A DNA stretch of 20,864 bases from a virus, in IMG/VR virus record IMGVR_UViG_3300010370_000300, positions 1-20,864 of that record; one strand, written 5' to 3'. The notes under the pieces are model-generated. The model did no database searches, had not been told where the DNA came from, and saw nothing but the letters and a program-made list of their open reading frames with translations. Every line of letters begins with the position of its first letter. Positions within the stretch are counted from its first letter, which is position 1. This document shows, one piece after another, positions 1 through 19,519 of the stretch. The translations under genes and the position numbers were made by a program.

Positions 1-1
1 G

Positions 2-4535: not shown

Positions 4536-4548
4536 TGGGTCCTTTCAA

Positions 4549-4608: not shown

Positions 4609-4634
4609 TCGTTCCTCGTTCAGCAGGAGGGCAT

Positions 4635-5510: not shown

Positions 5511-5513
5511 GAA

Positions 5514-6882: not shown

Positions 6883-6884
6883 TC

Positions 6885-7304
6885 ATGAAGACGCTCCAGT
6901 TTGAGGCCGTCAAGGTCGCCATGAAGCAAGACAAGACGGGATACGTCCTGACTACTTGCATTCACCCGGACGAGGTCCCAGAGGATCTTCTCCGGGACTG
7001 GGTGGGCGCTCGGTATCAGGTGGTGATGGTGCGACTTGACGCGCACGAGCAGCCCATGGACAGGCAGGACGAGTTCTCTGGAGAGAAGTCTGTCAGACAG
7101 GCCGGAATCCTCAGTAGGGATCAGGAGTTCTGGTCCTTTCTGGTGGACCTCGGCGAGATCTTTGACAAGGATCAGGAGTCAGCTACCGAGTGGTTGCGTG
7201 AACACCTTGGCGTGAAGTCAAGATCAGAGCTGAAGACCAATGAGTCGGCCCGCCAGAGGCTTCAAAAACTTAACAAGGAATTTTCCGCGTGGAAAGAAAA
7301 ATGA
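6885..7304 (+). CDS. Unrecognised conserved-type phage protein, 139 aa
   Basis: No family recognised. The N-terminal half (FEAVKVAMKQDKTGYVLTTCIHPDEVPEDLLRDWVGARYQVVMVRLD) looks alpha/beta and resembles small phage proteins found beside recombination genes. The C-terminal 45 residues are helical and charged and end in a Lys-rich tail. It starts two bases after the SSB-tip stop and its stop overlaps the next gene's ATG (ATGA at 7301), so it is translated as part of the recombination operon. A role with the annealing proteins is a guess from position only. Confidence 0.75.
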   Translation: MKTLQFEAVKVAMKQDKTGYVLTTCIHPDEVPEDLLRDWVGARYQVVMVRLDAHEQPMDRQDEFSGEKSVRQAGILSRDQEFWSFLVDLGEIFDKDQESATEWLREHLGVKSRSELKTNESARQRLQKLNKEFSAWKEK

Positions 7305-7570
7305 TCCCGTATTCGTTCTATGTGCCGGAGGAGATGCACAAGAAGCTAAAACTTCTGGCCAAAGAGCGAAAGGCAGCTTCGATGATTCGTGACGCACTGG
7401 CGATGATCTTCGAGGGTAGCGACACCTACACAAGCGGCTACAACCGCGGTATCGCAGACGCCGCAAAGGTTGTCTTCGACTGCGAAGAAGCTCAGATGGT
7501 TGCGGTCAAAGGAAAGGATATCGGCGTGGTTTTGTCCGAACGAATCAACTCACTGGCGAGACACAAATGA
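7301..7570 (+). CDS. Putative ribbon-helix-helix (CopG/Arc-type) DNA-binding protein
   Basis: The first 40 residues, IPYSFYVPEEMHKKLKLLAKERKAASMIRDALAMIF, have the strand-helix-helix pattern of ribbon-helix-helix proteins, with a variable turn between the helices. The rest (GYNRGIADAAKVVFD and a short C-terminal helix) is unassigned. An in-frame GTG at 7289 is possible, with AAGGAA upstream, but the ATG at 7301 overlaps the previous stop as ATGA, the pattern used throughout this operon, so I prefer it (89 residues). RHH proteins usually act as dimeric repressors; the target is unknown. Confidence 0.65.
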   Translation: MIPYSFYVPEEMHKKLKLLAKERKAASMIRDALAMIFEGSDTYTSGYNRGIADAAKVVFDCEEAQMVAVKGKDIGVVLSERINSLARHK

Positions 7571-7872
7571 GTTACAACATTATTGAACTGGAGGTGCTAC
7601 GCTGGGCTGAGGCTCGCAAGATCATCCCTCGTAGCACCCCGATGGCCCAGGCAATCAAAACCATGGAAGAAGTCAACGAGCTTCTTTCTGCCATCCATCG
7701 AAACGACCAAGCAGGCATGGTCGATGCCTATGGGGATATTTTGGTGACCCTGATTATTGGGTCGGATCTTGCCGGGATTGATATGGTTCAGGCCCTGAGA
7801 AGCGCCTACGATCAAATCAAGGACCGGAAGGGAACGCTGCGAGAAGACGGCGTGTTTGTTAAGGAACAGTGA
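7567..7872 (+). CDS. MazG-like nucleotide pyrophosphohydrolase
   Basis: The 101-residue protein shows the all-alpha NTP pyrophosphatase layout: EEVNEL with Glu34, Glu35 and Glu38, and DAYGDILVTL with Asp53 and Asp57, which together bind Mg2+. MazG-like phage enzymes hydrolyse dNTPs or alarmone-type nucleotides and may blunt host starvation responses or clean nucleotide pools; the exact substrate cannot be read from sequence. The start overlaps the previous stop (ATGA) and its stop overlaps the next start by one base. Confidence 0.82.
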   Translation: MSYNIIELEVLRWAEARKIIPRSTPMAQAIKTMEEVNELLSAIHRNDQAGMVDAYGDILVTLIIGSDLAGIDMVQALRSAYDQIKDRKGTLREDGVFVKEQ

Positions 7873-8033
7873 TGCTTTACCCCACCGTTGTTTATAAGCG
7901 TTGCGACAAGCTGTGCAATAAGTGCAAGCAGTGCGTTGCGTTTCAGAGGCTGATCGAGAAGATCGATTTTCAGGAGCGGAGTGCGTTGGACAAACAGCGA
8001 GAGGCTGAACGAGAACTAAGGAGAGAGCGATGA
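7872..8033 (+). CDS. Small Cys-cluster protein, 53 aa
   Basis: The ORF starts at the ATG sharing one base with the MazG-like stop and ends in ATGA with the next gene. The protein has four closely spaced cysteines, CDKLCNKCKQC (residues 11-21), suitable for one zinc ion, followed by a long, very charged helix (about 25-53) rich in Glu and Arg. No family recognised. Coupling on both sides and the consistent frame are the evidence that it is real. Confidence 0.65.
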   Translation: MLYPTVVYKRCDKLCNKCKQCVAFQRLIEKIDFQERSALDKQREAERELRRER

Positions 8034-8167
8034 GATTTTGTTGCGACGAGCAATGCCATCAAGGAAGGAATTGTCCTGACAGGACTATCCCTGATTGGGT
8101 TGACGGGTTCGCGCTTGGCATCTGCGCGGTGTCATTCATAGTGATTCTGGTGATGCTGTTCGCATGA
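8030..8167 (+). CDS. Small single-pass membrane protein, 45 aa
   Basis: It starts at an ATGA overlap (8030-8033) and ends in another (8164-8167). Residues 1-16 contain four cysteines and a histidine (CC...C.H...C); residues about 24-45 form one hydrophobic segment (FALGICAVSFIVILVMLFA) running to the C-terminus. The predicted product is a tiny inner-membrane protein with a Cys-rich N-terminal head. Function unknown; phage proteins of this size often act on host membrane targets, but nothing here specifies that. Confidence 0.6.
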   Translation: MRFCCDEQCHQGRNCPDRTIPDWVDGFALGICAVSFIVILVMLFA

Positions 8168-8325
8168 TCTGCGTACTGCTGGAATGCGATGGCAAGTCCA
8201 AAGTTCTTGAGACCAGGGTTCATGAGAACACTGTGTGGATTCGCAGGAGAAGGCAGTGCTCTTGCGGCCACGTTTGGTGGACAACAGAAATCCCAGAAAA
8301 CAACTTAATCGTGAGAGAAGAATGA
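8164..8325 (+). CDS. Stand-alone NrdR-like zinc-ribbon protein, 53 aa
   Basis: The translation contains VLETR, WIRRRRQC, CGH and WWTTE, in the order and spacing of the N-terminal zinc ribbon of the NrdR repressor (V-x-DSR, IRRRREC-x2-C, FTT-x-E). Cys32 and Cys34 form the second knuckle as CSC rather than CxxC; Cys3 and Cys8 could form the first as C-x4-C. The ATP-cone of NrdR is absent, so it cannot sense nucleotides as NrdR does. ATGA overlaps on both sides support expression. It could bind DNA or act as an adapter; the resemblance is by eye. Confidence 0.6.
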   Translation: MICVLLECDGKSKVLETRVHENTVWIRRRRQCSCGHVWWTTEIPENNLIVREE

Positions 8326-8546
8326 GCACAAAGAAAAAAATTAACCCGTTTACAGAACTTAGAAAAGAGCGCGAAAAACTAGCTACGCAGCCGGAAGAGC
8401 CTTACATACCGTTCTACGAATACCAATTAAAAGACGGCCGAAAGGTGACTTATGGTGTTGCGGACAGCAAAGGACGGTACGGCTGGGTATTCAAAGACAC
8501 CCTCAAGCCGGTGACTGAAGAAGACATTAAAGGGACCAATAAATGA
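8322..8546 (+). CDS. Unrecognised small protein, 74 aa
   Basis: A longer frame from a GTG at 8235 exists, but the ATG at 8322 overlaps the previous stop as ATGA and is the better start. The N-terminus is Lys-rich (MSTKKKINPFTELRKEREK). The rest (YIPFYEYQLKDGRKVTYGVADSKGRYGWVFKDTLKPVT) reads as a small beta-rich domain, resembling an SH3-like barrel in spacing. This gene is lower in GC than its neighbours (AAAGAAAAAAATTAACCC near the start), which suggests a separate origin. Function unknown. Confidence 0.65.
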   Translation: MSTKKKINPFTELRKEREKLATQPEEPYIPFYEYQLKDGRKVTYGVADSKGRYGWVFKDTLKPVTEEDIKGTNK

Positions 8547-8869
8547 AAAAGCTCATCTGTGCAGCACTGATCTGTTTGGCCCCAGTTGCGAACGCGGAGT
8601 TCTGGGACGGGAACAAACTTCAACGATTCCTGAGCGAGTCGCCCGGGTACAACAGCGGGGCGGCCATGGGGTTCATCATCGGCGTTCATGACTTAGGCGA
8701 AGGCGTGCTTCATTGCTCCCCGACCAACATCACGGCCGGTCAGGCAAGGTCCGTGGTCCAGGCTTATCTGAACGAGGTCCCATCGCTCCTGCACAACACA
8801 GCGCAAATTCTGGTGACCCGGGCGCTCCAGCGTGCGTGGCCCTGCCCCGCGAAAGGCAGCCCGACATGA
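8543..8869 (+). CDS. Secreted Rap1a/Tai-like protein
   Basis: Residues 1-18 form a signal peptide (MKKLICAALICLAPVANA, cleavage before Glu19). The mature part follows the Rap1a/Tai pattern: an N-terminal helix, SGAAMGFIIGVHD, a cysteine in LHCSP (Cys58), NITAGQARSVVQAYLNEVP, a hydrophobic ILVTRAL helix and AWPCP (Cys101); the two cysteines could form the family's disulfide. Bacterial members are periplasmic immunity proteins against type VI amidases. In a phage it could protect the wall of the infected cell, delay lysis or block competitors. Family match by eye; role inferred. ATGA on both sides. Confidence 0.78.
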   Translation: MKKLICAALICLAPVANAEFWDGNKLQRFLSESPGYNSGAAMGFIIGVHDLGEGVLHCSPTNITAGQARSVVQAYLNEVPSLLHNTAQILVTRALQRAWPCPAKGSPT

Positions 8870-9057
8870 GCAGTCACATCATCACAATCGAGACCACGTT
8901 TCGATACGAACATGGCGACCAGAGGCAAAACACTTGGTCGGTGTCTTTGCAGGGCGACGGGACAGTTGGTTCTTACGTTCAGGCTTTCCGCACTGCGTTG
9001 ATGGCAGCAGGGTTCGATGCGGAATTGGCCGGATCACTGGGGATCAGAGATGAATGA
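8866..9057 (+). CDS. Unrecognised small protein, 63 aa
   Basis: It starts at ATG 8866, overlapping the previous stop (ATGA). The sequence (MSSHIITIETTFRYEHG...TWSVSLQGDGTVGSYVQAFRTALMAAGFDAELAGSL) suggests an N-terminal beta-hairpin followed by a helix. The same frame continues upstream through the Rap1a-like gene without a better start. No family recognised. It overlaps the next gene by eight bases. Confidence 0.65.
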   Translation: MSSHIITIETTFRYEHGDQRQNTWSVSLQGDGTVGSYVQAFRTALMAAGFDAELAGSLGIRDE

Positions 9058-9430
9058 CCTGAGAACCGCCGCCCAGCAGGCGCTGGAGGCATGGGACAAA
9101 GATGAGAACGGAACGGTTGATCATCCGATGTCTGGCGTGATGGAAACACTCCGCGCCGCACTGGAGGGGTTCGACGCTCTCTTCGCCGAACTAACGCACC
9201 CGGAGCAGGAGCCGGTGGCGTGGATGTATGTCAACTCTGATGGAGAGTGCGAGCAAATTGAATACGGCGTTTGTGACTTTGACGACCAAAACATAACTTT
9301 GCTCTACACCCACCCACCCCACCGCGAGTGGCAGGGGCTGACGGATGAGGAGGCTGCTGCATGTTGGTCCACAAGTGCTGTCGAAACGTGGAAAGCCATC
9401 GAGGCCGCGCTGAAGGAGAAGAACAAGTGA
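9050..9430 (+). CDS. Conserved-type phage hypothetical protein, 126 aa
   Basis: The N-terminus (LRTAAQQALEAWD), the central EPVAWMYVN and the later LLYTHPPHREWQGLTDEEA are modules I recognise from many hypothetical proteins of proteobacterial phages and prophages, but no biochemical role is known to me. The start at ATG 9050 keeps the LRTAAQQ beginning; an in-frame ATG at 9017 would add 11 residues and overlap the previous gene more. The stop overlaps the next GTG start (GTGA). Confidence 0.72.
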   Translation: MNDLRTAAQQALEAWDKDENGTVDHPMSGVMETLRAALEGFDALFAELTHPEQEPVAWMYVNSDGECEQIEYGVCDFDDQNITLLYTHPPHREWQGLTDEEAAACWSTSAVETWKAIEAALKEKNK

Positions 9431-9639
9431 CCCGCGACGACATCATCCGCATGGCGCGGGAGGCTGGGATAGTTGTGACCGGCGAGGCTGTTTGGCGTTT
9501 GTGCGAACTTGTCGCCGCTGCCGAGCGTGAGGCATGTGCGAAGGTGTGTGAAAAAGAAATTGCTCGGGTAAAACCGATCTACTCTGTAACAGCAGAGAAC
9601 TGCGTCAAAGCCATCCGAGCAAGAGGGGAAGAAGGGTAA
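9427..9639 (+). CDS. Small phage protein of the EREACAKVCE type, 70 aa
   Basis: The GTG at 9427 overlaps the previous stop (GTGA), giving TRDDIIRMAREAGIV at the start; the frame is open further upstream but without a better start. The core is AAAEREACAKVCEKE and the end is KAIRARGEEG. This short helical module is widespread in phage hypothetical proteins, often fused to or beside the EPVAWM family, as here. The 74-residue protein encoded at 11100 carries a diverged copy of the same pattern. Function unknown. Confidence 0.7.
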   Translation: MTRDDIIRMAREAGIVVTGEAVWRLCELVAAAEREACAKVCEKEIARVKPIYSVTAENCVKAIRARGEEG

Positions 9640-9641
9640 CA

Positions 9642-10484
9642 ATGAAAGATTTGTTCAAAATTGAGGCGCCTACTTGCATATCGTTTAGCGGAGGAAGAAC
9701 GTCTGCGTATATGCTCTGGCGCGTTCTGCAAAGCAACGATGGCCTGCCGTCTGAGGCCAAGATCTGCTTTGCAAACACAGGCAAGGAGGACGAGGCTACA
9801 CTGCGCTTTGTTGACCGCTGCTCAAAAGAATGGGGTGTTCCAATCACTTGGGTGGAGTACGCCGAGGCGGAGCAGACCAAGGATCGCTTTCGGGTCGTGA
9901 CCTTTGAAACCGCCAGTCGTGATGGCGAGCCGTTTGAGGCCATCATCAGAAGGCGCAACTACTTGCCAAATCCAGTCAGCAGGTTCTGCACCGTCGAGAT
10001 GAAGGTGCGAGCAATCCATCGCTACTTGAAGTCTATTGGTTGGACAGAGTGGGACTCCATGCTCGGCATCAGGGCTGATGAGCCACGCCGCCTAGCCAAG
10101 ATCGGAAATCAAGACTACGGCAAGCACGAAGAGAAAATCGCACCTCTCGGCCCTGCGGGAGTTACTAAAGAAATGGTCGGCGCGTTCTGGGCCGGACAGC
10201 CCTTTGACCTTGAACTGCCCAACATGAACGGCGTGACCATGCATGGCAATTGCGACCTCTGCTACCTCAAGGGCGCGTCACAGATCCTGTCCCTGATCGC
10301 CGAGAAGCCTCAACGCGCCGTCTGGTGGGCAAAGATGGAGGCGTTGGCGTTGGCGTCATCGCCCTCAGGGGACAAGTTCCGCACCGACCGCCCGTCATAC
10401 GCCCAGATGCTGAAGTTCACCAAGGAGCAGCGGTCGATGTTTGATGACGATGTTGATTCCATTGAATGCTTCTGCGGGGATTGA
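9642..10484 (+). CDS. PAPS reductase-like PP-loop protein
   Basis: The 280-residue protein begins with a PP-loop, ISFSGGRTSA (13-22), typical of the PAPS reductase/adenine nucleotide alpha-hydrolase superfamily, which activates substrates with AMP. FANTGKEDEATLRFVDRC follows the reductase pattern. Five cysteines (116, 204, 207, 276, 278) sit in RFCT, GNCDLC and ECFCGD contexts and could hold a metal or Fe-S centre. Phage and prophage relatives are common, and some superfamily members act in DNA or tRNA sulfur modification; the substrate here is not known. The gene starts two bases after the previous stop. Confidence 0.8.
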   Translation: MKDLFKIEAPTCISFSGGRTSAYMLWRVLQSNDGLPSEAKICFANTGKEDEATLRFVDRCSKEWGVPITWVEYAEAEQTKDRFRVVTFETASRDGEPFEAIIRRRNYLPNPVSRFCTVEMKVRAIHRYLKSIGWTEWDSMLGIRADEPRRLAKIGNQDYGKHEEKIAPLGPAGVTKEMVGAFWAGQPFDLELPNMNGVTMHGNCDLCYLKGASQILSLIAEKPQRAVWWAKMEALALASSPSGDKFRTDRPSYAQMLKFTKEQRSMFDDDVDSIECFCGD

Positions 10485-10486
10485 TT

Positions 10487-10723
10487 TTGAGAGCAAGAAC
10501 AATCACTAGCATGATCAATGAAGATCTTGTTCAGGCACTGGCTACTGTCCGCGCTCTGATTGATCTGACCGATCCGGAGAACGAGGCCGCGTGGGCGCAG
10601 ATAGAAACCTTCTGCTCAATCGCCCTTCGCGTGTTCGCTAAAACCAATCCATCCAAGCTACGGGATGCAGCCATGGCAGAAGAGATAAAAGCCAGGATTG
10701 AAGGAAGAGAGGTTCTCGAATGA
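10487..10723 (+). CDS. Unrecognised small helical protein, 70-78 aa
   Basis: The certain part is DLVQALATVRALIDLTDPENEAAWAQIETFCSIALRVF followed by a charged C-terminus, probably all helical. The start is uncertain: TTG at 10487 has GGGGA about 5 bases upstream and gives 78 residues; ATG at 10511 gives 70 residues but has no clear ribosome binding site. The stop overlaps the next gene's ATG (ATGA at 10720). No family recognised. Confidence 0.6.
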   Translation: MRARTITSMINEDLVQALATVRALIDLTDPENEAAWAQIETFCSIALRVFAKTNPSKLRDAAMAEEIKARIEGREVLE

Positions 10724-11103
10724 AAGATATGAGTTCAGATGCGACGGCAGAAAAAAGACTAATGGCCGCCGTCGTTGCACAGGCGGTAAAAGATGCGTGC
10801 CTTTTGCCTATCGAAAGGAGACGGCGAGGCAAGACGGAAATGGCTTTGCGATCAGATGCAATTACGGCCATGGCTTTCCTGTTTGAAAAGTCCATGCCGG
10901 GGCTCGATGCATATGCCATTTGGCTAGACTTTGATACCGATAGATTCAGAGAAAGGCTGATTGATGCATGCGATAGCAACAGGAGAGACCCAATGTTCAG
11001 TGATCAGCAGCGCCGTGCATTCAGGCATAACTACCGTATCTTCATGTCAATGACCAAGCATGAAAGGACCGGAAGCTATGAAATCGAGGATGAAGAAGAA
11101 TGA
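10720..11103 (+). CDS. Unrecognised phage protein, 127 aa
   Basis: It starts in an ATGA overlap and ends in another at 11100. The sequence has a helical N-terminal half with a basic patch (LPIERRRRGKTEMALRSDAITAMAFLF), then DAYAIWLDFDTDRFRERL, and an acidic C-terminus (EIEDEEE). The layout is that of a small helical DNA-associated phage protein, but I see no motif that defines a family. Real-gene status rests on length and coupling. Confidence 0.7.
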   Translation: MKDMSSDATAEKRLMAAVVAQAVKDACLLPIERRRRGKTEMALRSDAITAMAFLFEKSMPGLDAYAIWLDFDTDRFRERLIDACDSNRRDPMFSDQQRRAFRHNYRIFMSMTKHERTGSYEIEDEEE

Positions 11104-11324
11104 ATCAAGCTGAACAAAACAGGCTTGATCAAGTCTGGTTCAAGGCTCTTGATGAATCTGTAGCGGCAAACGAGATGTTCACCAGATACAGATTCGCCCA
11201 TCGCATTGCACAAGAGGAAAGAGAGTCTTGTGCAAAGCTCTTGGATGAATTAGCAGAATGCTGCAAAGGGATGCGTAAAGTCGCTCTCACTGCGGCAGCT
11301 AATGCAATCAGGCACAGGAAATGA
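11100..11324 (+). CDS. Small phage protein of the ERExCAK type, 74 aa
   Basis: The ATG overlaps the previous stop and the stop overlaps the next ATG. The core AQEERESCAKLLDELAE and the end ALTAAANAIRHRK parallel the 70-residue protein at 9427 (AAEREACAKVCE ... AENCVKAIRARGE), so the two look like diverged copies of one helical module. Two cysteines (ECCKG) lie in the middle. Function unknown. Confidence 0.7.
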   Translation: MNQAEQNRLDQVWFKALDESVAANEMFTRYRFAHRIAQEERESCAKLLDELAECCKGMRKVALTAAANAIRHRK

Positions 11325-11833
11325 GCGAGAACAAAGTAATGCCAGCAGTGAGTGGAGAAGTCTACTGGAGGGACCCGCATGGCAGCCCTCCCCCAAGAGG
11401 AGTGAAGATGTTGATACTGACAGATGGTGGAGTCGCCGTTATTGGTAGCTGGACGGACGACAGCAACTTTGTCGCATGGTCTCCGCTTCCAAAGAAGCGG
11501 CCTTCAGACTTGCAGTCCAGGATTTTTTCCATCCTGAGCAAAAGTAACATGACGGCAGACCAGATCGTTGAAGAGGTCAAGGCCCCGCGGTCCACGGTTA
11601 TCGTAGCCATCAACGCCCTGAAGAAACAGGGCAAGATTTGCATTCACTCCTACCAGAAGACGGTATCGTCTCCCGTCAGGATATGGACAATCGGCAGCGT
11701 GGATGCAGAGCGGCCGAATAACATGACCGTCGAGCAGCGCAACGAACGGCAGAGGCAGAAGCGCAAGGAAAAGAAGGCTGCCAGCAAGCAGAAGTTCACC
11801 CCCCGCCGCGACATTGCGGCTTCTTGGTTTTGA
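11321..11833 (+). CDS. Putative winged-helix protein with N-terminal phage domain, 170 aa
   Basis: Residues about 13-57 (YWRDPHGSPPPRGVKMLILTDGGVAVIGSWTDDSNFVAWSPLP) resemble a small domain common in phage hypotheticals that ends in a W-x-PLP motif. Residues about 62-115 (LQSRIFSILSKSNMTADQIVEEVKAPRSTVIVAINALKKQGKI) have a helix-turn-helix pattern with a following wing, then a very basic tail (RNERQRQKRKEKK). A DNA-binding regulator is likely; the target is unknown. ATGA overlap at the start. Confidence 0.7.
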   Translation: MSENKVMPAVSGEVYWRDPHGSPPPRGVKMLILTDGGVAVIGSWTDDSNFVAWSPLPKKRPSDLQSRIFSILSKSNMTADQIVEEVKAPRSTVIVAINALKKQGKICIHSYQKTVSSPVRIWTIGSVDAERPNNMTVEQRNERQRQKRKEKKAASKQKFTPRRDIAASWF

Positions 11834-11840
11834 GGAACTT

Positions 11841-12026
11841 ATGGAAGTCAAAGGAAGTCCCGCATCTCTTGAGATCGCCAAACCAGATTGCAGAACCTGC
11901 AAGCAAATCTACCTTGGGCACACTTGTCTCGAGACCGTCCAGTGCATCCAAGGAAACAAGTATCAAAAGCGCGAGCCGCTTCACCTCTGGAGTCCAGATG
12001 CACACCTACAAAGCGATGGTCGATAA
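11841..12026 (+). CDS. Small Cys-motif protein, 61 aa
   Basis: The ATG at 11841 has GAGGAA about 5 bases upstream. The protein has CRTC at residues 17-20, then cysteines 29 and 34, followed by a GNKYQKREPLHLW segment; this C-x2-C ... C-x4-C plus NKY-x-PxxLW layout is familiar from short putative zinc-binding phage proteins. Its last 29 bases overlap the nuclease gene in another frame. Function unknown. Confidence 0.6.
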   Translation: MEVKGSPASLEIAKPDCRTCKQIYLGHTCLETVQCIQGNKYQKREPLHLWSPDAHLQSDGR

Positions 12027-12321
12027 CGTAGTTGATGGCGACACCATCGATGTCTACATAGACCTCGGGTTCAAGATCGCCACCAAGCAACGCCTTCGAG
12101 TGGCTCACATTGATACCCCGGAGCGGGGCCATCCAAAGTACAAGGAGGCCGCTGACGCCGGTCGAGCCATGCTGCTCAACAAGACCGTGACCATCAAGAC
12201 AGAGAAAGTCTCGAAGTGGGGCTACTACCTCGCCCAGGTCACGCTCGAGTCTGGCGAGGACTATGCCCAGGCCATGGTGTCCATGGGTCTGGCCAAGCCA
12301 TACGAGGGTGGAGCGAAGTGA
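11998..12321 (+). CDS. Staphylococcal-nuclease-like (SNase/thermonuclease) protein lacking the second catalytic arginine
   Basis: Residues 11-42 match the SNase OB-fold core: VVDGDT with Asp13, then QRLRVAHIDTPE with Arg34, Asp39 and Glu42, equivalent to Asp21, Arg35, Asp40 and Glu43 of micrococcal nuclease. The later KYGR motif, which holds the catalytic Arg87, is KWGY here, so that arginine is replaced by tyrosine (Tyr76). At 107 residues the domain is short but complete through the last helix (AQAMVSMGLAKPY). GGAG lies 6 bases before ATG 11998. There is no signal peptide, so it acts in the cytoplasm. Confidence 0.85.
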   Translation: MHTYKAMVDNVVDGDTIDVYIDLGFKIATKQRLRVAHIDTPERGHPKYKEAADAGRAMLLNKTVTIKTEKVSKWGYYLAQVTLESGEDYAQAMVSMGLAKPYEGGAK

Positions 12322-12581
12322 ACAGCAAAAACCTGACCGCGGTTGACAGGGAGCACCTGTCCAACGTCAAGTCCTTGCCATGCGGTGTATGCGGTCACGC
12401 CGCGCCCTCGGATGCTCACCACATCGAGCAGGGCCTGCACTACCTGTGCATCCCACTGTGCAAGGACTGCCATCAGGGATCTCACAACGGGATCCACGGC
12501 CGACGAGCCATGTGGAACGTACTCAAGAAGACTGAACTCACCGTTCTCAATGACACCGTCAAGAAGCTCATGTTAGGATGA
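12318..12581 (+). CDS. Ref-like HNH-type nuclease
   Basis: This 87-residue protein starts with GTG in a GTGA overlap with the nuclease gene, with GGTGGAG upstream. The sequence CGVCGHAAPSDAHHIEQG...LCIPLCKDCHQGSHNGIHG carries Cys22/Cys25, the His34-His35 pair and Cys48/Cys51-His52, then His56 and His60. This matches the C-terminal HNH domain of P1 Ref and related phage proteins (CxxC ... HH ... IPLCxxCHxG ... HG). P1 Ref cuts DNA at RecA-made displacement loops; this copy has only the HNH part. It is the last gene before the terminator. Confidence 0.83.
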   Translation: MNSKNLTAVDREHLSNVKSLPCGVCGHAAPSDAHHIEQGLHYLCIPLCKDCHQGSHNGIHGRRAMWNVLKKTELTVLNDTVKKLMLG

Positions 12582-12623
12582 AGTCGCTCCCCCATGGAGC
12601 GTGCTCTCTCTCGTGTTGAGATT

Positions 12624-12651
12624 CGCCCCCTTCATTGGGGGCGTTTTTTTT
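12624..12651 (+). terminator. Intrinsic terminator of the long plus operon
   Basis: CGCCCCC (12624-12630) and GGGGGCG (12637-12643) form a perfect 7-bp stem with a 6-base loop, followed by eight T. It lies about 40 bases after the HNH stop and closes the operon that begins at 4635. A weaker 6-bp hairpin without T-run precedes it at 12585-12601. Confidence 0.92.
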
Positions 12652-12655
12652 CGAC

Positions 12656-12671
12656 ATTAACACCTGTTAAT
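12656..12671. promoter_or_regulatory. Operator-like palindrome upstream of the ncRNA promoter
   Basis: ATTAACACCTGTTAAT is a 6-4-6 palindrome (ATTAAC / GTTAAT) ending four bases before the -35 box of the promoter at 12675. Size and position fit a dimeric regulator site. It overlaps the third copy of ATCTGTTGA (12670-12678). The regulator is unknown; the ParB-like and ribbon-helix-helix proteins of this window are candidates. Confidence 0.5.
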
Positions 12672-12674
12672 CTG

Positions 12675-12702
12675 TTGACGACCCACAGCAGGGTGCTACA
12701 AT
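12675..12702 (+). promoter_or_regulatory. Sigma70-type promoter with extended -10
   Basis: TTGACG (12675-12680), 16-base spacer, TACAAT (12697-12702) preceded by TGC, an extended -10. This is the best promoter in the window and predicts a start near 12708-12710. The first downstream gene is over 430 bases away and a T-run-ended stem lies at 12733-12817, so its main product is probably an RNA. Confidence 0.75.
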
Positions 12703-12708
12703 CAGCAC

Positions 12709-12817
12709 CGCTGGAGTGGAAACCAAGCACGAGCCGTTAAGTCAGATCCCGACCCCGCGAGGGGTGCCTCCCTGCCAAGGGTGTGTTTCCACCGGGGTCT
12801 GTCTTAACGGCTTTTTT
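12709..12817 (+). ncRNA. Candidate structured phage small RNA (about 109 nt) with terminator-type 3' end
   Basis: A long stem pairs GCCGTTAAG (12733-12741) with CTTAACGGC (12803-12811), and after one U-U mismatch CAGATCCC (12743-12750) with GGGGTCTG (12794-12801), with one G-U pair. Six T follow at 12812-12817. Inside sit a hairpin ACCCC-GCGA-GGGGT (12752-12765) with a GNRA tetraloop and a short one, CCCT-GCCA-AGGG (12770-12781). GTGGAAAC near the 5' end (12716-12723) is perfectly complementary to GTTTCCAC in the junction (12785-12792), suggesting a pseudoknot or alternative pairing. Promoter, fold and T-run together indicate a discrete RNA; an attenuator leader is the alternative. I recognise no known family. 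Ends are estimated. Confidence 0.65.
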
Positions 12818-13080
12818 GTTCTCCACGCCAGCCGGACTCCGCCCGTTAGTAGCGCACCTGCATCGGTGGCTCGGAAGAGAAGACCCGTCCTGCTCGACAC
12901 CCCGGCAGTGGCGGCCCAGCCTGTCAGCGAGGGACTGGGGTAGTTGGTGGGAAAAAGGGTGGCCGTACCGAGCCCGCCAACGAACGAATCGCTGCCTCCG
13001 GGGGACTGGGGCCGGGCCTGTGAGCCTAGCCTGGGTCAGTGGTGGTCCCCGAACCACCCCTTGGAGAAACTCAGATCGGG
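12818..13080 (+). other. GC-rich non-coding stretch with nested complementary segments
   Basis: No ORF here looks protein-like on either strand. Nested complementary pairs are visible: CGGCCCAG (12912-12919) with CTGGGGCCG (13006-13014, one bulge), CAGCGA (12925-12930) with TCGCTG (12989-12994), and GTTGGTGGG (12943-12951) with CCCGCCAAC (12973-12981, one G-U). A separate hairpin GGTGGT/ACCACC lies at 13041-13058. GGGACTGGGG is repeated at 12931-12940 and 13002-13011. This suggests a second structured RNA or long leader; ends and function are unknown. Confidence 0.45.
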
Positions 13081-13090
13081 ATGTCATGTG

Positions 13091-13120
13091 ATGACCCTGG
13101 CGTGACTCATGTGCTATCAT
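13091..13120 (+). promoter_or_regulatory. Candidate promoter of the ParB-like/helicase operon
   Basis: ATGACC (13091-13096, four matches to TTGACA), 18-base spacer, and TATCAT (13115-13120) preceded by TGC as an extended -10. It would start transcription about 20 bases before the AGGAGG site (13135-13140) of the ParB-like gene. Confidence 0.55.
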
Positions 13121-13144
13121 GGGCGCCCAGCCTCAGGAGGAACG

Positions 13145-13975
13145 ATGAAAGTAAAGCTATCGGAAATCAGACTCGACGGAGACACGCAGGCACGGCAGGA
13201 GCTGAGCACAGACACAGTGACTCTGTATGCCGAACAGATGAAGGAGGGAGCGGAGTTCCCCCCGGTGGTCGTTTACAACGACGGCTCGAGCATGTGGCTT
13301 GCAGACGGGTTCCACCGGTACTTCGCCTGCAAGAGCATCGGCGGGCTGGAGATCAACGCGCTGGTGAACAAGGGCACAGTGATTGACGCCCGCATCTATG
13401 CGTTCTCTGCGAACGGCGGTCGAGGTCTCTCGCTCACGCCGGCGGACATCCGGGCCAACATCATCAAGATGTTGACCATGGAAGAAACCAAGAACTGGAC
13501 TAACACTGAGATCGCCAAGCATGTCCGGTCCTCGAGCATGACCGTCGGCAGGATCAGGGCGTCGCTTGGGGAGGAGGCAAAAGCCCCTGTTCGGACGTTC
13601 ATCAAGAAGGACGGGACCGAAGGCAAGATCGATACATCAAAGAGGAAAGAGAGGCAGCCAAAGCAGCAGCCCAAGCCTCAAGAAGAGCCCAGCGCTGATC
13701 ACCTTGCGGACGAGCTGGCCGACACTGTCAACGATCTGTCTGCCGAGAACCAGCGCCTCAAGGATGCGATTGCGATTGGTCAGTGGGATGCCAGCGACAT
13801 CGAGAAGATCGATGTTCAGGAGACGATTGCAGAGCTGCGCGAGAAGATTCGATTGCTCGAGATCGACAACGCAGCGCTGCGAGATTCTCGAGACATGTTC
13901 CAGAACCGAAACGCCGAGCTGATGGCTACGGTGAAGTCTTTGCAGGCGAAGCTTAAAAAAACGGAGGCGCCATGA
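13145..13975 (+). CDS. ParB-like protein with helix-turn-helix and C-terminal coiled coil
   Basis: The ATG at 13145 has AGGAGG 4 bases upstream; an in-frame ATG at 13109 lies before that site and is rejected. Residues 1-90 form a ParB/Srx-type N-terminal domain (VKLSEIRLDGDTQAR, FPPVVVYNDG, WLADGFHRYFACKSIG; DGFHR is the GxRR-box equivalent). Residues about 115-140 look like a helix-turn-helix (NTEIAKHVRSSSMTVGRIRASL). A Lys/Gln/Pro-rich linker leads to a long coiled coil (about 195-275). Phage ParB-like proteins act in partition, regulation or as nucleases. It heads the second plus operon, so a regulatory role is plausible. Confidence 0.8.
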   Translation: MKVKLSEIRLDGDTQARQELSTDTVTLYAEQMKEGAEFPPVVVYNDGSSMWLADGFHRYFACKSIGGLEINALVNKGTVIDARIYAFSANGGRGLSLTPADIRANIIKMLTMEETKNWTNTEIAKHVRSSSMTVGRIRASLGEEAKAPVRTFIKKDGTEGKIDTSKRKERQPKQQPKPQEEPSADHLADELADTVNDLSAENQRLKDAIAIGQWDASDIEKIDVQETIAELREKIRLLEIDNAALRDSRDMFQNRNAELMATVKSLQAKLKKTEAP

Positions 13976-14232
13976 AGAACAAATCATGGACTGTGTGTGG
14001 AGTCAGGATTAGCAAACCCGGAGACACTTCTGATCGTGCTGGGGCGTGGGTTCTGTTTGAGCGGACGTTTTTTGATCACGAAAACGCTCGATTGGCTTAT
14101 GAATACGGGCGCCTCAAGTTCGATGGAAGTCCGTTGTGGTACTGGTCAATGACAGAGGTGCCGAGCGATGACATCGACCCCATGAAAGAAATAGATGCGC
14201 TCGTCAAAGAGTTTTCTGAGGATCAACGATAG
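13972..14232 (+). CDS. Unrecognised small protein, 86 aa
   Basis: The ATG overlaps the ParB-like stop (ATGA). The sequence (WTVCGVRISKPGDTSDRAGAWVLFERTFFDHENARLAYEYGRLKFDGSPLWYWSMTEV) is aromatic-rich and probably beta-alpha-beta, ending in an acidic helix. No family recognised. It is separated from the helicase gene by 50 bases containing a 6-bp GC hairpin. Confidence 0.65.
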   Translation: MKNKSWTVCGVRISKPGDTSDRAGAWVLFERTFFDHENARLAYEYGRLKFDGSPLWYWSMTEVPSDDIDPMKEIDALVKEFSEDQR

Positions 14233-14251
14233 GGCGACAGCCCGAGCCCAA

Positions 14252-14268
14252 GCCGGGGGGTTCCCGGC
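14252..14268 (+). promoter_or_regulatory. GC hairpin before the helicase gene
   Basis: GCCGGG (14252-14257) and CCCGGC (14263-14268) form a 6-bp stem with a 5-base loop and no T-run. It ends 14 bases before the helicase ATG, just 5' of the GGAG site (14274-14277). It could mark an mRNA processing point or tune translation; it is not a standard terminator. Confidence 0.4.
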
Positions 14269-14282
14269 GTCATGGAGCAATC

Positions 14283-15761
14283 ATGGAACTTCAACTGCGC
14301 GAGCATCAGACGCAGGTTATTGAGGCACTGAGAGAGGGGTTCAGGCAAGGCCATAGAACCCAGCTTCTGTACGCACCGACAGGCTTCGGAAAGACCGAGG
14401 TGGCCATCGCACTGATGTCCGCGGTCCGAGAGAAGTACAAGAGGGCGGCAATGGTTCTCGACAGGCTGGTGCTGGTGGATCAGACCAGCATGCGACTCTC
14501 GAAGTACAAGCTGCCTCATGGCGTGTACCAGTCGGGCCATTGGAAGTACGACACGGGCGAGCGGCTGCAAGTGTGCAGTGCCCAGACCCTCGAGCGCAGG
14601 AGCGACTTCCCGAAGGTCGATCTCCTGATCGTCGATGAGTGCCATGTCGCCCGCAAGCAGACGACAGAGTTCATCAAGGCCAACCCTGATGTGAAGGTTG
14701 TGGGATTGACCGCAACCCCGTTCACAAAGGGCCTGGGAGAAATCTACAAGCATGTGGTGTGCGGCGCCACAAACGAGTGGCTTGTCGAGCGCAAGTGGCT
14801 CACGCCACTGAAGGTGTACATCGCAAAAGAGATCGACATGACCGGCGCGAAGAAGGTCGCCGGGGAGTGGGCTCAGGATGTGGTGACAGAGCGCGGCATG
14901 AAGCTCACAGGGGACATTGTCGAGGAGTGGGTCAAGAAGACTCACGAGATCTTCGGCAAGCCAGAGAAGACGATTGTGTTCTGTGCTGGCGTCGCTCACG
15001 GCGCTGATCTGGTCGAGCAGTTCGCAAGGAAGGGATACAACTTCGTCTCGATCAGCTACAGGGATAACGATGAGTTCAAGCGCGAGGCCATCGAGGATTT
15101 TGCCAAGCCAGACACGCAGATTCACGGCCTGATTGCGACGGACATCCTGACTCGAGGATTCGACGTTCCTGACGTCAAGATCGGGGTATCCGCCCGTCCA
15201 TTCAGCAAAAGCCTGTCGTCCCATGTCCAGCAGATGGGCCGGGTCATGCGTCCGCATCACTCGAAAGACTTCGCGGTCTGGCTCGATCACTCGGGGAACT
15301 ACCTCCGGTTTCAGGATGACTGGGATGCCCTGTTTTCGGATGGCGTGCAGGAGCTGGACCAGAAGGTTGAGAAGCCAAAGAAGGAAGTGTCCGAGGACAA
15401 GAAGGAGGCGTCCAAGTGCCCGAAGTGCGGCCACCTCTGGCCCAAGAACGCGGACAGTTGCCCTGCCTGTGGCCATGTCAGGATGAGAAAGAGCCAGATC
15501 GAGTCGGTGGCAGGCGAAATGCACGAGCTGGGAACCGCGGGAAAGAAGGAGAACAATCAGGCCTTTTACTCTGAGCTGCTCTTCTATGCTCACAGCCGCG
15601 GGTACAACCCGAACTGGGCGAAGCACAAGTATCGGGAGAGGTTCGGTTCCTGGCCGCGCAATCTCTCAGATGCATCGATTCCAACAACACCAAAGACTCA
15701 GGCGTGGATCAAGAGCAGGAACATTGCCTGGGCTAAATCGAGACAGAGGGTGGGAGCATGA
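14283..15761 (+). CDS. DEAD/DEAH-box (superfamily 2) helicase with zinc ribbon
   Basis: The 492-residue protein has the SF2 helicase motifs in order: REHQ Q-like motif (6-9), Walker A APTGFGKT (31-38), DECH (118-121), TATPF (143-147), IATDILTRGFD (284-294) and QQMGRVMRPH (316-325). A linker rich in Lys/Glu leads to a zinc ribbon with Cys379, Cys382, Cys393 and Cys396, then a C-terminal domain with KYRERFGSWP, which I know from phage helicases of this type. It likely unwinds DNA for replication together with the Toprim protein encoded next, with which it overlaps by ATGA. GGAG precedes the ATG. Confidence 0.9.
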   Translation: MELQLREHQTQVIEALREGFRQGHRTQLLYAPTGFGKTEVAIALMSAVREKYKRAAMVLDRLVLVDQTSMRLSKYKLPHGVYQSGHWKYDTGERLQVCSAQTLERRSDFPKVDLLIVDECHVARKQTTEFIKANPDVKVVGLTATPFTKGLGEIYKHVVCGATNEWLVERKWLTPLKVYIAKEIDMTGAKKVAGEWAQDVVTERGMKLTGDIVEEWVKKTHEIFGKPEKTIVFCAGVAHGADLVEQFARKGYNFVSISYRDNDEFKREAIEDFAKPDTQIHGLIATDILTRGFDVPDVKIGVSARPFSKSLSSHVQQMGRVMRPHHSKDFAVWLDHSGNYLRFQDDWDALFSDGVQELDQKVEKPKKEVSEDKKEASKCPKCGHLWPKNADSCPACGHVRMRKSQIESVAGEMHELGTAGKKENNQAFYSELLFYAHSRGYNPNWAKHKYRERFGSWPRNLSDASIPTTPKTQAWIKSRNIAWAKSRQRVGA

Positions 15762-16573
15762 GGTTCGAGGATTTTGCAAGGCTGCATGGGCTGCGGATTA
15801 ACTCGGTGATCGCAGGCAAGTGGATCGCAGTCCCTACGGATGACCACCCTCGAAAGAGGAATGGCCGATACAAGTGGCTAGGTGACATTGGATGGGTCCA
15901 GAACTGGGCGACCATGACGGCCCCCGAGATGTGGCGCAGCGAGCGCGATGACGTCCAGGCCATGAACGTCCGTCGAATCGTTCAGGACGCCGACAGGGAG
16001 CGTCAGGAGGCCGCCAATCAGGCAGCGAAGAAGGCTGGGTGGATACTGCATCAATGCAAGTCCGGGCAGCACCCGTATCTCGAGCGCAAGGGGTTCCCAG
16101 ATGAGCACGGGAACGTCTGGAACGGACTGCTAGTGATCCCTATGTCTATCGACTCGAGGCTCGTCGGAGCCCAGCTCATCGGTAACGAAGGGGGCAAGAA
16201 GTTCCTGCAAGGACAGATTACGAAGGGGGCAACCTTCGTCATCGACGCCAGGGGCATCAACATTCTGTGCGAAGGCTATGCAACGGCGCTGTCCGTCCGA
16301 GCAGTGATGAAGGCCATGAAGGTCCGGTACACCATCCACGTTTGCTTCAGCGCAGGAAATCTGAAGAACGTAGCGCAGAGCGTCCGGGGAATCGTGATCG
16401 CTGACAACGATCCGAATGGCACCGGGGAACGAGCTGCTCGTGAAACCGGCCAGCCTTATTGGCTCTCGGAGACAGTCGGCGAAGACTTCAATGACTACCA
16501 TCTCCGAGTGGGCCTTTTCAAATCGATGGCTTCGTTGAAGCCCATTGTTTTCTCATCAGCCGCAAAAACTTAG
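15758..16573 (+). CDS. Toprim-domain primase-like protein
   Basis: The 271-residue protein has an N-terminal segment typical of phage primases (DDHPRKRNGRYKWLGDIGWVQNW), a basic helical region, LLVIPM...LVGAQLIGNEGGKKFL, then a Toprim core: NILCEGYATALSV with Glu172 and VIADNDPNGTGERAA with Asp216 and Asp218, followed by GEDFNDYH. This matches the Toprim_3 type. No N-terminal zinc finger is present, so template recognition must differ from T7 or DnaG primases. It is coupled to the helicase upstream by ATGA. Its last 56 bases overlap the convergent sigma-like gene. Confidence 0.87.
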   Translation: MRFEDFARLHGLRINSVIAGKWIAVPTDDHPRKRNGRYKWLGDIGWVQNWATMTAPEMWRSERDDVQAMNVRRIVQDADRERQEAANQAAKKAGWILHQCKSGQHPYLERKGFPDEHGNVWNGLLVIPMSIDSRLVGAQLIGNEGGKKFLQGQITKGATFVIDARGINILCEGYATALSVRAVMKAMKVRYTIHVCFSAGNLKNVAQSVRGIVIADNDPNGTGERAARETGQPYWLSETVGEDFNDYHLRVGLFKSMASLKPIVFSSAAKT

Positions 16574-16814
16574 CCTCGATCTGGCGGACACGCTCCCGCG
16601 TGACTCCGCCAATCTTTGCGGCCTCGTCCAGGGTTGACCCCTTGATCCGCGCTGACAGCATGTCGAAGTATCTCTCCCTGCTCTCAGCGCTTACTTGATG
16701 CCCGTATAGCTTCGAGAACTGATCCCAGTCCGGGAAGTCCACCAGTTCAATCGGGTGCGTCGCGTCCCCTGTGGTAATGGGGACGCGGCCGTTATACAGC
16801 CGCAGGTTTGTCAT
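16518..16814 (-). CDS. Sigma factor region 4-like protein, 98 aa
   Basis: Residues 61-88 (TLDEAAKIGGVTRERVRQIEAKFLRLMR) match the region 4.2 helix-turn-helix of sigma70 factors (TLEE...[20 protein letters not shown]). The preceding 60 residues include an acidic FPDWDQF segment and no region 2. The frame is open upstream to 16898, but the ATG at 16814 overlaps the previous gene's stop as ATGA. A free-standing region 4 could bind the RNA polymerase beta flap or a -35 element. It is the last gene of the minus cluster. Confidence 0.75.
   Translation of the reverse strand: MTNLRLYNGRVPITTGDATHPIELVDFPDWDQFSKLYGHQVSAESRERYFDMLSARIKGSTLDEAAKIGGVTRERVRQIEAKFLRLMRKQWASTKPSI
16583..16610. terminator. 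Strong hairpin between the convergent operons (weak terminator candidate)
   Basis: GGCGGACACGC (16583-16593) pairs with GCGTG (16598-16602) and TCCGCC (16605-16610), giving an 11-bp stem with a TCCC loop and a 2-base bulge. It begins 10 bases after the Toprim stop, so it could define the 3' end of the plus transcript. No T-run follows, and the same bases encode the recognition helix of the sigma-like protein on the minus strand. Confidence 0.35.
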
Positions 16815-17002
16815 TCTTTCGTTTCCACAATTTTGTCGATTGTCTGGTTGAAGTAACGCCTCAATTCGCTTGGCGGCAGCCCGACGACCATCGCACATTC
16901 AATCAAGTGCGCGGTGAAAACGGGAATAAGCAATTCGCCCGGATAGTCCTGCGTCACCGAGTTTATTTTATTGCTGATTTTGGTCAGATTCTCTGGAATC
17001 AT
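16811..17002 (-). CDS. Unrecognised small protein, 63 aa
   Basis: The translation (MIPENLTKISNKINSVTQDYPGELLIPVFTAHLIECAMVVGLPPSELRRYFNQTIDKIVETKE) is helical with one moderately hydrophobic central helix. Its stop overlaps the sigma-like ATG. The GTGGAAAC just before the sigma-like start lies inside its last codons. No family recognised. Confidence 0.6.
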   Translation of the reverse strand: MIPENLTKISNKINSVTQDYPGELLIPVFTAHLIECAMVVGLPPSELRRYFNQTIDKIVETKE

Positions 17003-17135
17003 GATCGCGCTCCGTGTTGAGTGATTTGAAGAATGCCCATTTAGCCTTTACGTCCGCATTATCAGAGGGCGGCACCCATCCAAACCGGCGCCATGTCCGC
17101 TGTACGTCCGTCGTTTTGAAGTATGTCGAGATCAT
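16968..17135 (-). CDS. Unrecognised small protein, 55 aa
   Basis: Too short for most gene callers, but its ATG at 17135 overlaps the stop of the next gene upstream as ATGA, as elsewhere in this cluster. The product (MISTYFKTTDVQRTWRRFGW, then VPPSDNADVKAKWAFFKSLN and a polar tail) is basic and Trp-rich. It overlaps the following 63-aa gene by 35 bases in another frame; a shorter true product is possible. Confidence 0.5.
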   Translation of the reverse strand: MISTYFKTTDVQRTWRRFGWVPPSDNADVKAKWAFFKSLNTERDHDSRESDQNQQ

Positions 17136-17362
17136 GGTTCCTCCACGGGGACCGAGTCCAGGCTGATGAATGAGAGATAGGGGTGATCCGGGATGTCGTC
17201 CGCGTAGATCACAACTCGCGTCTGTGGATCGAGCTTCCGCAGATAGTCGATGACATCCTGCACCGTAGTGCCTCCGTCCTCCTCTGGCTCTGGCGTCCTA
17301 GGGTCCATTGGATGACCCATGCATGGCCCCCAGGTGATTTCGTCTCCGGGTCCGTAGTTCAT
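17132..17362 (-). CDS. Unrecognised small acidic protein, 76 aa
   Basis: The N-terminal 30 residues are Pro/Gly-rich; the core TTVQDVIDYLRKLDPQTRVVIYADD is a helix-strand unit seen in other small phage hypotheticals. The end (SLDSVPVEEP) is acidic. GAGGTGAGCA precedes the ATG on the minus strand, giving a clear ribosome binding site. Confidence 0.65.
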   Translation of the reverse strand: MNYGPGDEITWGPCMGHPMDPRTPEPEEDGGTTVQDVIDYLRKLDPQTRVVIYADDIPDHPYLSFISLDSVPVEEP

Positions 17363-17372
17363 TGCTCACCTC

Positions 17373-17528
17373 TCAGAAAAGAGCCGGCTCGAACTGCGCC
17401 GGCGGTCGTTTGATCACTTCAGACGCATCTAGCCATCGGGGGAAGGGCCAGCCCTCCACGATGACCAGAACGCGCCCTGGCGTCCGTCTGATCACGCGGC
17501 AGGGCATGCCGTGCGTCTGGTAGCTCAT
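17373..17528 (-). CDS. Unrecognised small protein, 51 aa
   Basis: The ATG at 17528 overlaps the stop of the 57-aa gene upstream (ATGA), and it ends 10 bases before the next start. The product (MSYQTHGMPCRVIRRTPGRV, then LVIVEGWPFPRWLDASEVIK) has two strand-like segments and a Pro-rich C-terminus. It fills what would otherwise be an unexplained gap. Confidence 0.55.
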   Translation of the reverse strand: MSYQTHGMPCRVIRRTPGRVLVIVEGWPFPRWLDASEVIKRPPAQFEPALF

Positions 17529-17698
17529 CGGTCATGCAGTCGCAGAACGTCCACCCGCAGGCGGATAGCCCCGACGATCAGATGGCCTTGAAGCCGCCCG
17601 AGTTCCTTCGGGTCCCTGGTCATGTCCGACAGTGTCATGCGCCCCATTTTCTCCATAATCTCGATCAGGGGCAGCAGGATGTGCTCGTGCTCTTTCAT
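17525..17698 (-). CDS. Unrecognised small protein, 57 aa
   Basis: The frame is open back to 17797, but the ATG at 17698 follows GAGGAAC by a normal distance and sits just after the upstream stop (17707), so it is preferred. The product is helical (MKEHEHILLPLIEIMEKMGRM, then LSDMTRDPKELGRLQGHL) with a basic C-terminus. No family recognised. Confidence 0.6.
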   Translation of the reverse strand: MKEHEHILLPLIEIMEKMGRMTLSDMTRDPKELGRLQGHLIVGAIRLRVDVLRLHDR

Positions 17699-17706
17699 GT
17701 CGTTCC

Positions 17707-18045
17707 TCAGTAGTTGAAAGACTCTGATGTTCTGAAAAGAATCCGCCGGCCTTTGCGACGGATCACCTTGACGTACCTCAAAACGCACCCGCAGCAATCG
17801 TATTCATGCCGGCAGTTGTTGCCTCCGGCCGTGTGAATGATCGCCCTCGATGCGTCGGTGTAGTCCATGCCTCGAGGCATGGTCGCCCATTGAAGATAGG
17901 TCGCCCCATGGTCGAGCCCATCTCCGTCCGACGTAATCCTGGGCGGCGTTACCCGCACGGGGCCGACGAAGCCCCATCTGTCATGTGACGCGAACCCGTC
18001 TCGGTATTTGAACGTCAGGCGTTCGTACAGATACATGGTGTGCAT
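17707..18045 (-). CDS. Unrecognised protein, 112 aa, with a Cys cluster
   Basis: The ORF is open to 18081, but ATG 18045 (MHTMYLYERLTFKYRDG) keeps it clear of the upstream 28-aa gene; ATG 18036 is an alternative. The body has aromatic-rich strand segments and ends with CRHEYDCCGCVLRYVKVIRRKGRR, a Cys/His cluster followed by a basic strand. A small metal-binding site is possible. Family unknown. Confidence 0.6.
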   Translation of the reverse strand: MHTMYLYERLTFKYRDGFASHDRWGFVGPVRVTPPRITSDGDGLDHGATYLQWATMPRGMDYTDASRAIIHTAGGNNCRHEYDCCGCVLRYVKVIRRKGRRILFRTSESFNY

Positions 18046-18052
18046 ATTGTTC

Positions 18053-18139
18053 TCACAGTGGGAAAAAAGGCCAGCCTGCAAGCAGGCATCCGAGAATCAG
18101 GCCCAGCAGGATGCAGATGAGCCATTCAAGTGCTTTCAT
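18053..18139 (-). CDS. Tiny hydrophobic membrane peptide, 28 aa
   Basis: The ATG overlaps the stop of the gene upstream (ATGA at 18139-18136), supporting translation. The product is MKALEWLICILLGLILGCLL then AGWPFFPL: a short charged start and a single membrane-spanning stretch, with ILGC resembling a lipoprotein box. Such peptides can disturb or tag the inner membrane, but no role can be assigned. Confidence 0.5.
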   Translation of the reverse strand: MKALEWLICILLGLILGCLLAGWPFFPL

Positions 18140-18366
18140 GCTGTCGGCGTCCGTTCGAGCAGCGAGATCGTCCGGTTATCGGTGACCTCCCACCCCTGCC
18201 TGCGCCAGCGTCCGTCCGTTTTGCTGGCGATTAGGCGTCCGTGCTCTCGAACCCGAGCGGCCAGCGTGCTGCCCGGGTAGTCGTTTAGATGCTGCGGCTG
18301 CACCGAGTAGACCGATGCGTCGCCGTTCGCCTCGACAAGCGCGAAAATTGAATCAGACAGAATCAC
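18136..18366 (-). CDS. Unrecognised small protein, 76 aa
   Basis: The frame is open to 18441, but GTG at 18366 has GAGGAG 7-8 bases upstream and gives the natural start ILSDSIFALVEANGDASVYSV. The rest contains LNDYPGSTLAARVREHGRLIAS and a W-rich strand. It overlaps the upstream gene by 14 bases. No family recognised. Confidence 0.6.
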   Translation of the reverse strand: MILSDSIFALVEANGDASVYSVQPQHLNDYPGSTLAARVREHGRLIASKTDGRWRRQGWEVTDNRTISLLERTPTA

Positions 18367-18601
18367 GTTGCAGCTCCTCGTTGGGTTCGGATTCGTATGC
18401 CGCATCGAGCGACGGGTAGATTGCCGCGATGGCCTCGTCATCGTCCCGGGTGATCAGGACCGTCCGTCCGTCCGTCATGACGACGATATCGGCCCAGTCG
18501 CCCACCCATTCCGAGAATTGCTCGAGGATCGCCCCGCCCCCAGGCACGCGCCACGCCCCGCAGGGCGCCAGCAGGGTTGATCCGTTCATCGCGTAGGTCA
18601 T
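18353..18601 (-). CDS. Unrecognised small protein, 82 aa
   Basis: ATG 18601 overlaps the upstream stop (ATGA); the longer frame from 18715 would run through that gene. The product (MTYAMNGSTLLAPCGAWRVP, then ILEQFSEWVGDWADIVVMTDGRTVLITRDDDEAIAAIYPSLDAAYE) is acidic and probably alpha/beta. TDGRT is encoded by a run of four ACGG units. Function unknown. Confidence 0.62.
   Translation of the reverse strand: MTYAMNGSTLLAPCGAWRVPGGGAILEQFSEWVGDWADIVVMTDGRTVLITRDDDEAIAAIYPSLDAAYESEPNEELQRDSV
18460..18476. repeat. Tetranucleotide tandem repeat (CCGT x4)
   Basis: Four consecutive CCGT units plus a partial copy, inside the 82-aa minus gene. The repeat length is not a multiple of three, so slippage would shift the reading frame. 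Four copies are few for active phase variation. Confidence 0.7.
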
Positions 18602-19198: not shown

Positions 19199-19205
19199 GT
19201 TCAAC

Positions 19206-19511: not shown

Positions 19512-19519
19512 GATTTTCC

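Follow-up and report, generated by a model that had tools for sequence, protein, structure and literature searches.

A short element in the virus genome fragment IMGVR_UViG_3300010370_000300 (the whole stretch of 20,864 nucleotides analysed here is termed the window) is, judging by comparison of sequences, an RNA family that had previously not been catalogued. With confidence evenly balanced, we propose that a modular phage noncoding RNA carries it as its 5′ domain, where it acts as a promoter-proximal attenuator. The family and its structure emerge from comparative analysis, whereas control of read-through is something we infer. A broader proposal, held at slightly below even confidence, is that modular phage noncoding RNAs form a class in which exchangeable promoter-attenuator 5′ domains are combined with exchangeable folded 3′ modules, some with tRNA-like inserts. 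Here a pseudoknot and a closing helix would exchange a single strand across an intrinsic terminator, thereby setting the ratio of short to long RNA.

Locus and promoter

The RNA gene lies on the plus strand, as do all features described below. Its promoter (12675–12702) consists of TTGACG (12675–12680), a 16-nt spacer, TGC and TACAAT (12697–12702), i.e., an extended −10 element. With a score of 10 of 12 it is the top sigma-70 match in a scan of window positions 1–20000, in agreement with the initial annotation, which had called it the best promoter. The upstream operon ends in a strong intrinsic terminator, CGCCCCCTTCATTGGGGGCG followed by T8 (12624–12651), which insulates the RNA gene. Taking the start from the −10 box, transcription that halts at the T-run of the element is predicted to yield a short RNA spanning 12709–12817.

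Most loci of the family are set in a phage replication region with helicase, primase, ParB-like, RusA-like, RuvC-like and HNH genes (the RusA, RuvC and HNH neighbours were identified by eye), and the genes downstream are mostly on the same strand. In the window, a 1377-aa protein with an LPD38 domain (59–4192), a PAPS-reductase-like protein (9642–10484) and a thermonuclease-like frame recognised by eye (11997–12321) lie beside phage replication genes. A ParB-like gene begins beyond the 3′ end of the module that follows the element, and a promoter-like site is present at 13091–13120. tRNA genes adjoin the element in two loci, L002 and L012; in L002 (MW202545; 5389–5964) a set of six directly abuts the RNA promoter.

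Fold of the 5′ domain

The promoter, the long stem, its T6, the two hairpins and the 8-base complement had all been placed correctly in the initial annotation, base for base. Downstream of the promoter, GCTGG (12710–12714) pairs with CCAAGC (12723–12728), with one bulge, to form hairpin P1 (12710–12728), and the loop of P1 holds strand A (GTGGAAAC, 12716–12723). P1 is backed by a partner-swap test (12.5 observed versus 9.5 ± 0.23 swapped). A is the 5′ strand of a pseudoknot whose 3′ strand, A′ (GTTTCCAC, 12785–12792), lies one base ahead of B′. The long terminator stem P2 is formed by B (12733–12750) and B′ (12794–12811), contains one U·U mismatch in the window, and is directly followed by TTTTTT (12812–12817). 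Enclosed in it are hairpins P3 (ACCCC-GCGA-GGGGT, 12752–12765) and P4 (CCCT-GCCA-AGGG, 12770–12781). Fold z-scores are −4.6 for 12706–12822 and −6.2 for 12709–12840, with no shuffle as good in either case. The one-base gap between A′ and B′ had been held against a pseudoknot; the gap alone does not exclude it, and A lies in the P1 loop. P1 and A:A′ together are about as long as P2, and from these lengths the two could pack side by side.

Search for relatives and spread of the family

A blastn search of INPHARED recovered one remote relative, MW202545 (73% identity), in which every part is kept and A and A′ have changed together. With three pattern scans, about 165 loci (102 distinct) were recovered from IMG/VR, where the tightest pattern alone matched 113 stretches. 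The first of these scans required neither A nor the T-run, and at least five T, 11–14 nt past GGGGTC, are present in all 78 of its 78 distinct full-flank members. A promoter-like match of at least 9 of 12 occurs in 78% of members versus 10% of shuffles. Each locus holds a single copy according to the covariance model, on which ground we rejected a repeat or mobile element.

The single INPHARED record that carries the element is of environmental-sample origin, and isolate phages and plasmids yielded no carrier besides MW202545. Among 84,980 bacterial and archaeal genomes the 5′ domain gave 61 pattern matches, all judged by eye to be due to chance and many falling in one conserved protein-coding stretch. 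The 5′ domain covariance model found none in 150 Burkholderiales genomes, an empty answer that weighs little. Rfam 15 has no gathering-level match in the window and, over the element, only noise at E up to 10, in line with the initial annotation, which had recognised no known RNA class. A literature search of open PMC papers returned no description of the family.

Several other identities were considered and rejected. ARAGORN and RF00005 make no tRNA or tmRNA call in the window. The match to CRISPR-DR13 is weak (E = 1), and GTGGAAAC covaries, so it is no fixed repeat of the kind that a CRISPR-repeat mimic would carry. Length differences that are not multiples of three speak against a protein-coding stretch, despite the "hypothetical protein" UOF78434.1 annotated over the RNA in the MW202545 record, which is probably spurious.

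Covariation in the pseudoknot and terminator stem

The structural alignment comprises 76 sequences. Pairing reaches 99.4% for A:A′, where 4 of 7 base pairs covary (at one example pair, AU 27, GC 22, CG 17 and UA 8), and 99.0% for P2, where 11 of 17 do. For A:A′, P2 and P3 jointly, 99.1% of cells are paired versus 35–53% in slid controls, and 16 of 29 pairs show two-sided change (222 cells versus 49 in shuffles). A occurs as GTGGAA, GTGGCA, GTGAGA, CTGGAA or TTGGCA, each with a matching A′. The compensatory change that the initial annotation had named as support for the long stem and the 8-bp pairing is therefore abundant, at 99% pairing, and homologs keep these pairings with covariation instead of losing them uncompensated. 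The P2 mismatch position stays mostly a non-pair (UU 44, CA 13, UA 11, CC 5, CG 3). The GCGA tetraloop, singled out earlier as a GNRA feature, is incidental: the P3 loop reads G-N-A-U in most members and three U in some. We also considered and dropped a competing helix between GGGGTC and the hairpin strand GACCCC, as loci L219 and L223 alter B′ along with B, not to keep that pairing.

The many one-sided G·U pairs in the alignment (columns 57/123, 56/124 and 42/138) make sense for one RNA strand only, and the promoter, T-run and pseudoknot are all strand-specific. These features make it very improbable that the palindromes belong to a DNA-level element such as an origin, operator or packaging site rather than to an RNA, even with helicase, primase, ParB-like, RusA and HNH neighbours in most loci.

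A third partner beyond the terminator

Behind the T-run lies a further strand, A″ (TCCAC-G-CCAGC, 12822–12832), which pairs with 12710–12720 (GCTGG-A-GTGGA) to form P0, the closing helix of the read-through RNA; A supplies the inner part of the P0 5′ strand. Because the same bases are used, P0 and P1 plus A:A′ are mutually exclusive. The initial annotation had posed a choice between a pseudoknot and competing folds. Both exist, but the competing partner of A is A″, beyond the T-run, where it had gone unseen.

Swapping A″ among loci lowers the complementarity score from 19.7 to 16.7 ± 0.33, and swapping within the same downstream module lowers it to 17.1 ± 0.33 (none of 300 shuffles attained the observed score); shared ancestry is not fully eliminated by such tests. 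The P1 5′ part alone, with A′ not involved, also passes against A″ (12.1 versus 11.3 ± 0.22), and its complementarity to A′ does not pass the partner-swap test. TCTCA occurs behind the T-run in 5 of 16 loci in which A carries GTGAGA, versus 0 of 86 others (p = 5e-5). The matching test for the A variant GTGGCA against A″ was negative, so A″ is looser than A′.

P0 is present in the minimum-energy fold of the read-through RNA. In the window the predicted energies are −20.9 kcal/mol for P0, −11.7 for A:A′ and −1.7 for P1; across the family P0 is predicted to be more stable than A:A′ in 76% of members and than P1 plus A:A′ in only 44%. Weaker opposite-strand matches of the covariance model indicate that the whole element is quasi-palindromic, as expected from P0 and P2.

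Downstream modules

The promoter had been described as driving no nearby gene, which overlooked a conserved, folded noncoding stretch that begins about 15 nt past the T-run. This spacing leaves no room for a promoter of its own. In the window the stretch is a type I module of about 230 nt (12833–13066, the 3′ boundary being approximate) with a conserved CCACCCCTTGGAGA near its end, and the type I consensus fold shows two-sided change in 18 of 30 pairs. Many type I 3′ ends (window 13055–13074; L004, L081, L089 and L104) read CCACCCTTGGGGAAC..ATG, so that the following gene's Shine-Dalgarno sequence and start codon may overlap this 3′ end.

Behind the 5′ domain family of the window, no fewer than four unrelated modules (types I, II, III and IV) were found, plus others at some loci. 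Searches for modules I–III in INPHARED and for type I in PLSDB found none. Type IV corresponds to Rfam family RF02932 (Betaproteobacteria-1 RNA), reportedly described in a 2017 paper; matches of 90–101 bits begin about 20 nt past the T-run of a window-type 5′ domain in L002, L015 and L041. The RF02932 model begins past the T-run and leaves out the promoter, the pseudoknot, the terminator and P0, and it has no above-gathering match in the window, which carries type I. Some type II modules have an apparent tRNA-like insert between GATGATGG and CCATCATC: in L260 (3327–3442, minus strand) the Rfam tRNA model matches with 33.7 bits over 116 nt, with no ARAGORN call, and similar inserts are apparent by eye in L258, L266, L282, L283, L285, L346 and L351. 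In L272 a match to int-alpA RNA (RF02996; 36.6 bits, 4260–4332) lies directly behind the type II module, before a gene start.

Exchange of 5′ domains and modules

Scans for modules I and II also found them behind 5′ domains of differing sequence that keep the same plan, namely a promoter, A in a hairpin loop, A′ near the terminator strand, a T-run and A″; modules I, II and IV all sit behind other 5′ domains of like architecture. In 72 distinct examples, a few of which are close variants of the window's family, both A:A′ (19.5 versus 14.7 ± 0.33) and A:A″ (18.6 versus 15.8 ± 0.41) are locus-specific. The plan is clear in the CATGC family and less clear in some others. By motif assignment, which is approximate, the window's 5′ family is combined with module I in 24 cases, II in 42, III in 14 and IV in 14, and the CATGC family with I in 9 and II in 42; three further 5′ families occur with modules I and/or II, and 27 cases are unassigned.

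The domain is also missing from some modules. Read by eye, several Burkholderiales chromosomal RF02932 RNAs appear to have a promoter and a short P0-like hairpin directly followed by the module, with no T-run domain; RF02932-type modules in bacterial genomes that lack a terminator domain are L398, L399, L401, L402 and L404, and in L403 such a domain is present by eye. The chromosomal occurrence of RF02932 hints at Burkholderiales hosts. Phage module IV sits behind the window's 5′ family in L408 and L410, behind other terminator domains in L409, L411 and L414, and, lacking any cassette, immediately after an upstream gene in L405, L412 and L415. The promoter-terminator domain therefore looks optional and exchangeable.

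Proposed model of attenuation and alternatives

In the proposed model, A would have only A′ to pair with during synthesis. A′ would emerge ahead of B′, and A:A′ would close a loop around B. Winding of the 18-bp P2 would then require threading of the end held by the polymerase, so that termination would be slowed and read-through favoured; this physical argument from topology and timing makes it probable that A:A′ slows the terminator and favours read-through. The polymerase would either stop at the T-run, giving an RNA of about 110 nt, or read through. After read-through, A″ would capture the 5′ strand, P1 and A:A′ would dissolve, and P0 would close an RNA of about 360 nt, with P2 free to close once A″ has taken the 5′ strand. 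Since A″ is made only after the T-run, it cannot itself decide that termination event. The long product would most likely be a trans-acting folded RNA or RNP.

Several observations argue for this model. The RNA has its own promoter behind a terminator, and a second intrinsic terminator follows that promoter ahead of the functional unit. A:A′, P2 and P3 are 99% paired with strong covariation, a T-run of at least five is present in all 78 testable members even though the scan did not require it, and A″ complementarity is locus-specific, with an outer part that passes independently of A′. A:A′ and the pairing of the 5′ strand with A″ share bases and are thus mutually exclusive helices with covariation, GTGAGA in A going with TCTCA in A″, and P0 is part of the minimum-energy read-through fold. 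The modules start too close behind the T-run to have a promoter of their own. Finally, sequence-divergent 5′ domains keep the plan ahead of the same modules. Against the model, P0 is predicted to outweigh P1 plus A:A′ in fewer than half of the members, the 5′ domain families share no ligand or core, and some modules occur without such a domain. A ligand common to all members is unlikely, as the divergent 5′ domains share a plan and not a core. We likewise rejected a riboswitch: there is no core common to all members and no single downstream gene function, an RNA module following instead, with varied genes beyond.

That P0 is the nested closing helix of the predicted fold would also suit an ornate phage RNA in which the role of the 5′ domain is structural: polymerase would by default transcribe through the T-run, P2 would be an ordinary stem of the mature molecule, and A:A′ and P0 would represent intermediates of folding or alternative contacts, possibly intermolecular. 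The tRNA-like inserts apparent in some type II modules and the tRNA genes in L002 and L012 fit this reading too, GOLLD and ROOL being large phage RNAs near tRNA islands and the GOLLD linker sometimes containing tRNAs (PMC12286853). It is nevertheless fairly unlikely, since at least five T straight after a GC-rich stem in every testable member are hard to explain without termination. We consider it unlikely as well that the element is a stand-alone, trans-acting phage small RNA of about 110 nt terminated at the T-run, with the conserved sequence that follows belonging to a separate, fellow-travelling RNA. Its promoter, compact fold and terminator form a complete unit and the 5′ domain is combined with unrelated modules, but A″ complements the 5′ end locus by locus, which needs a read-through RNA, the modules lack a promoter of their own, and no conserved unpaired seed is evident beyond the structured core. 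What was first described as a phage small RNA is indeed a structured phage RNA with its own promoter and T-run terminator, but it is not self-contained, as the unit continues past the T-run.

Relation to known RNAs and implications

The nearest kinds of RNA are the ornate phage RNAs GOLLD and ROOL and the attenuators, and the element is a member of no named RNA family tested. Terminator attenuators and pseudoknot riboswitches such as preQ1-I are likewise promoter-proximal, place a pseudoknot beside an intrinsic terminator and use mutually exclusive helices. Unlike in these systems, a noncoding RNA module follows instead of a gene, the competing strand A″ lies behind the terminator, and several unrelated cores share the plan with no common ligand evident. 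Like GOLLD and ROOL, the RNA is phage-borne, pseudoknotted and often near tRNA genes. It differs from them in its shorter length (about 360 nt for the window type), its internal T-run terminator and the swapping of entire, unrelated domains at either end; in GOLLD the 3′ region is conserved and the 5′ region variable (PMC12286853). The Rfam models of GOLLD, ROOL and HEARO have no above-gathering match in the window or the 46 loci scanned. Attenuation as a principle is already known; the novelty lies in the family and in the combinatorial way it is built.

Phage biology thereby gains a widespread RNA family, carried by many uncultured phages, and the orphan Rfam family RF02932 is placed as one module of a larger RNA. 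The element also offers a clean test of whether topology and timing allow a pseudoknot to govern an intrinsic terminator. If the attenuator model is true, the phage may choose between a short and a long RNA at the T-run.
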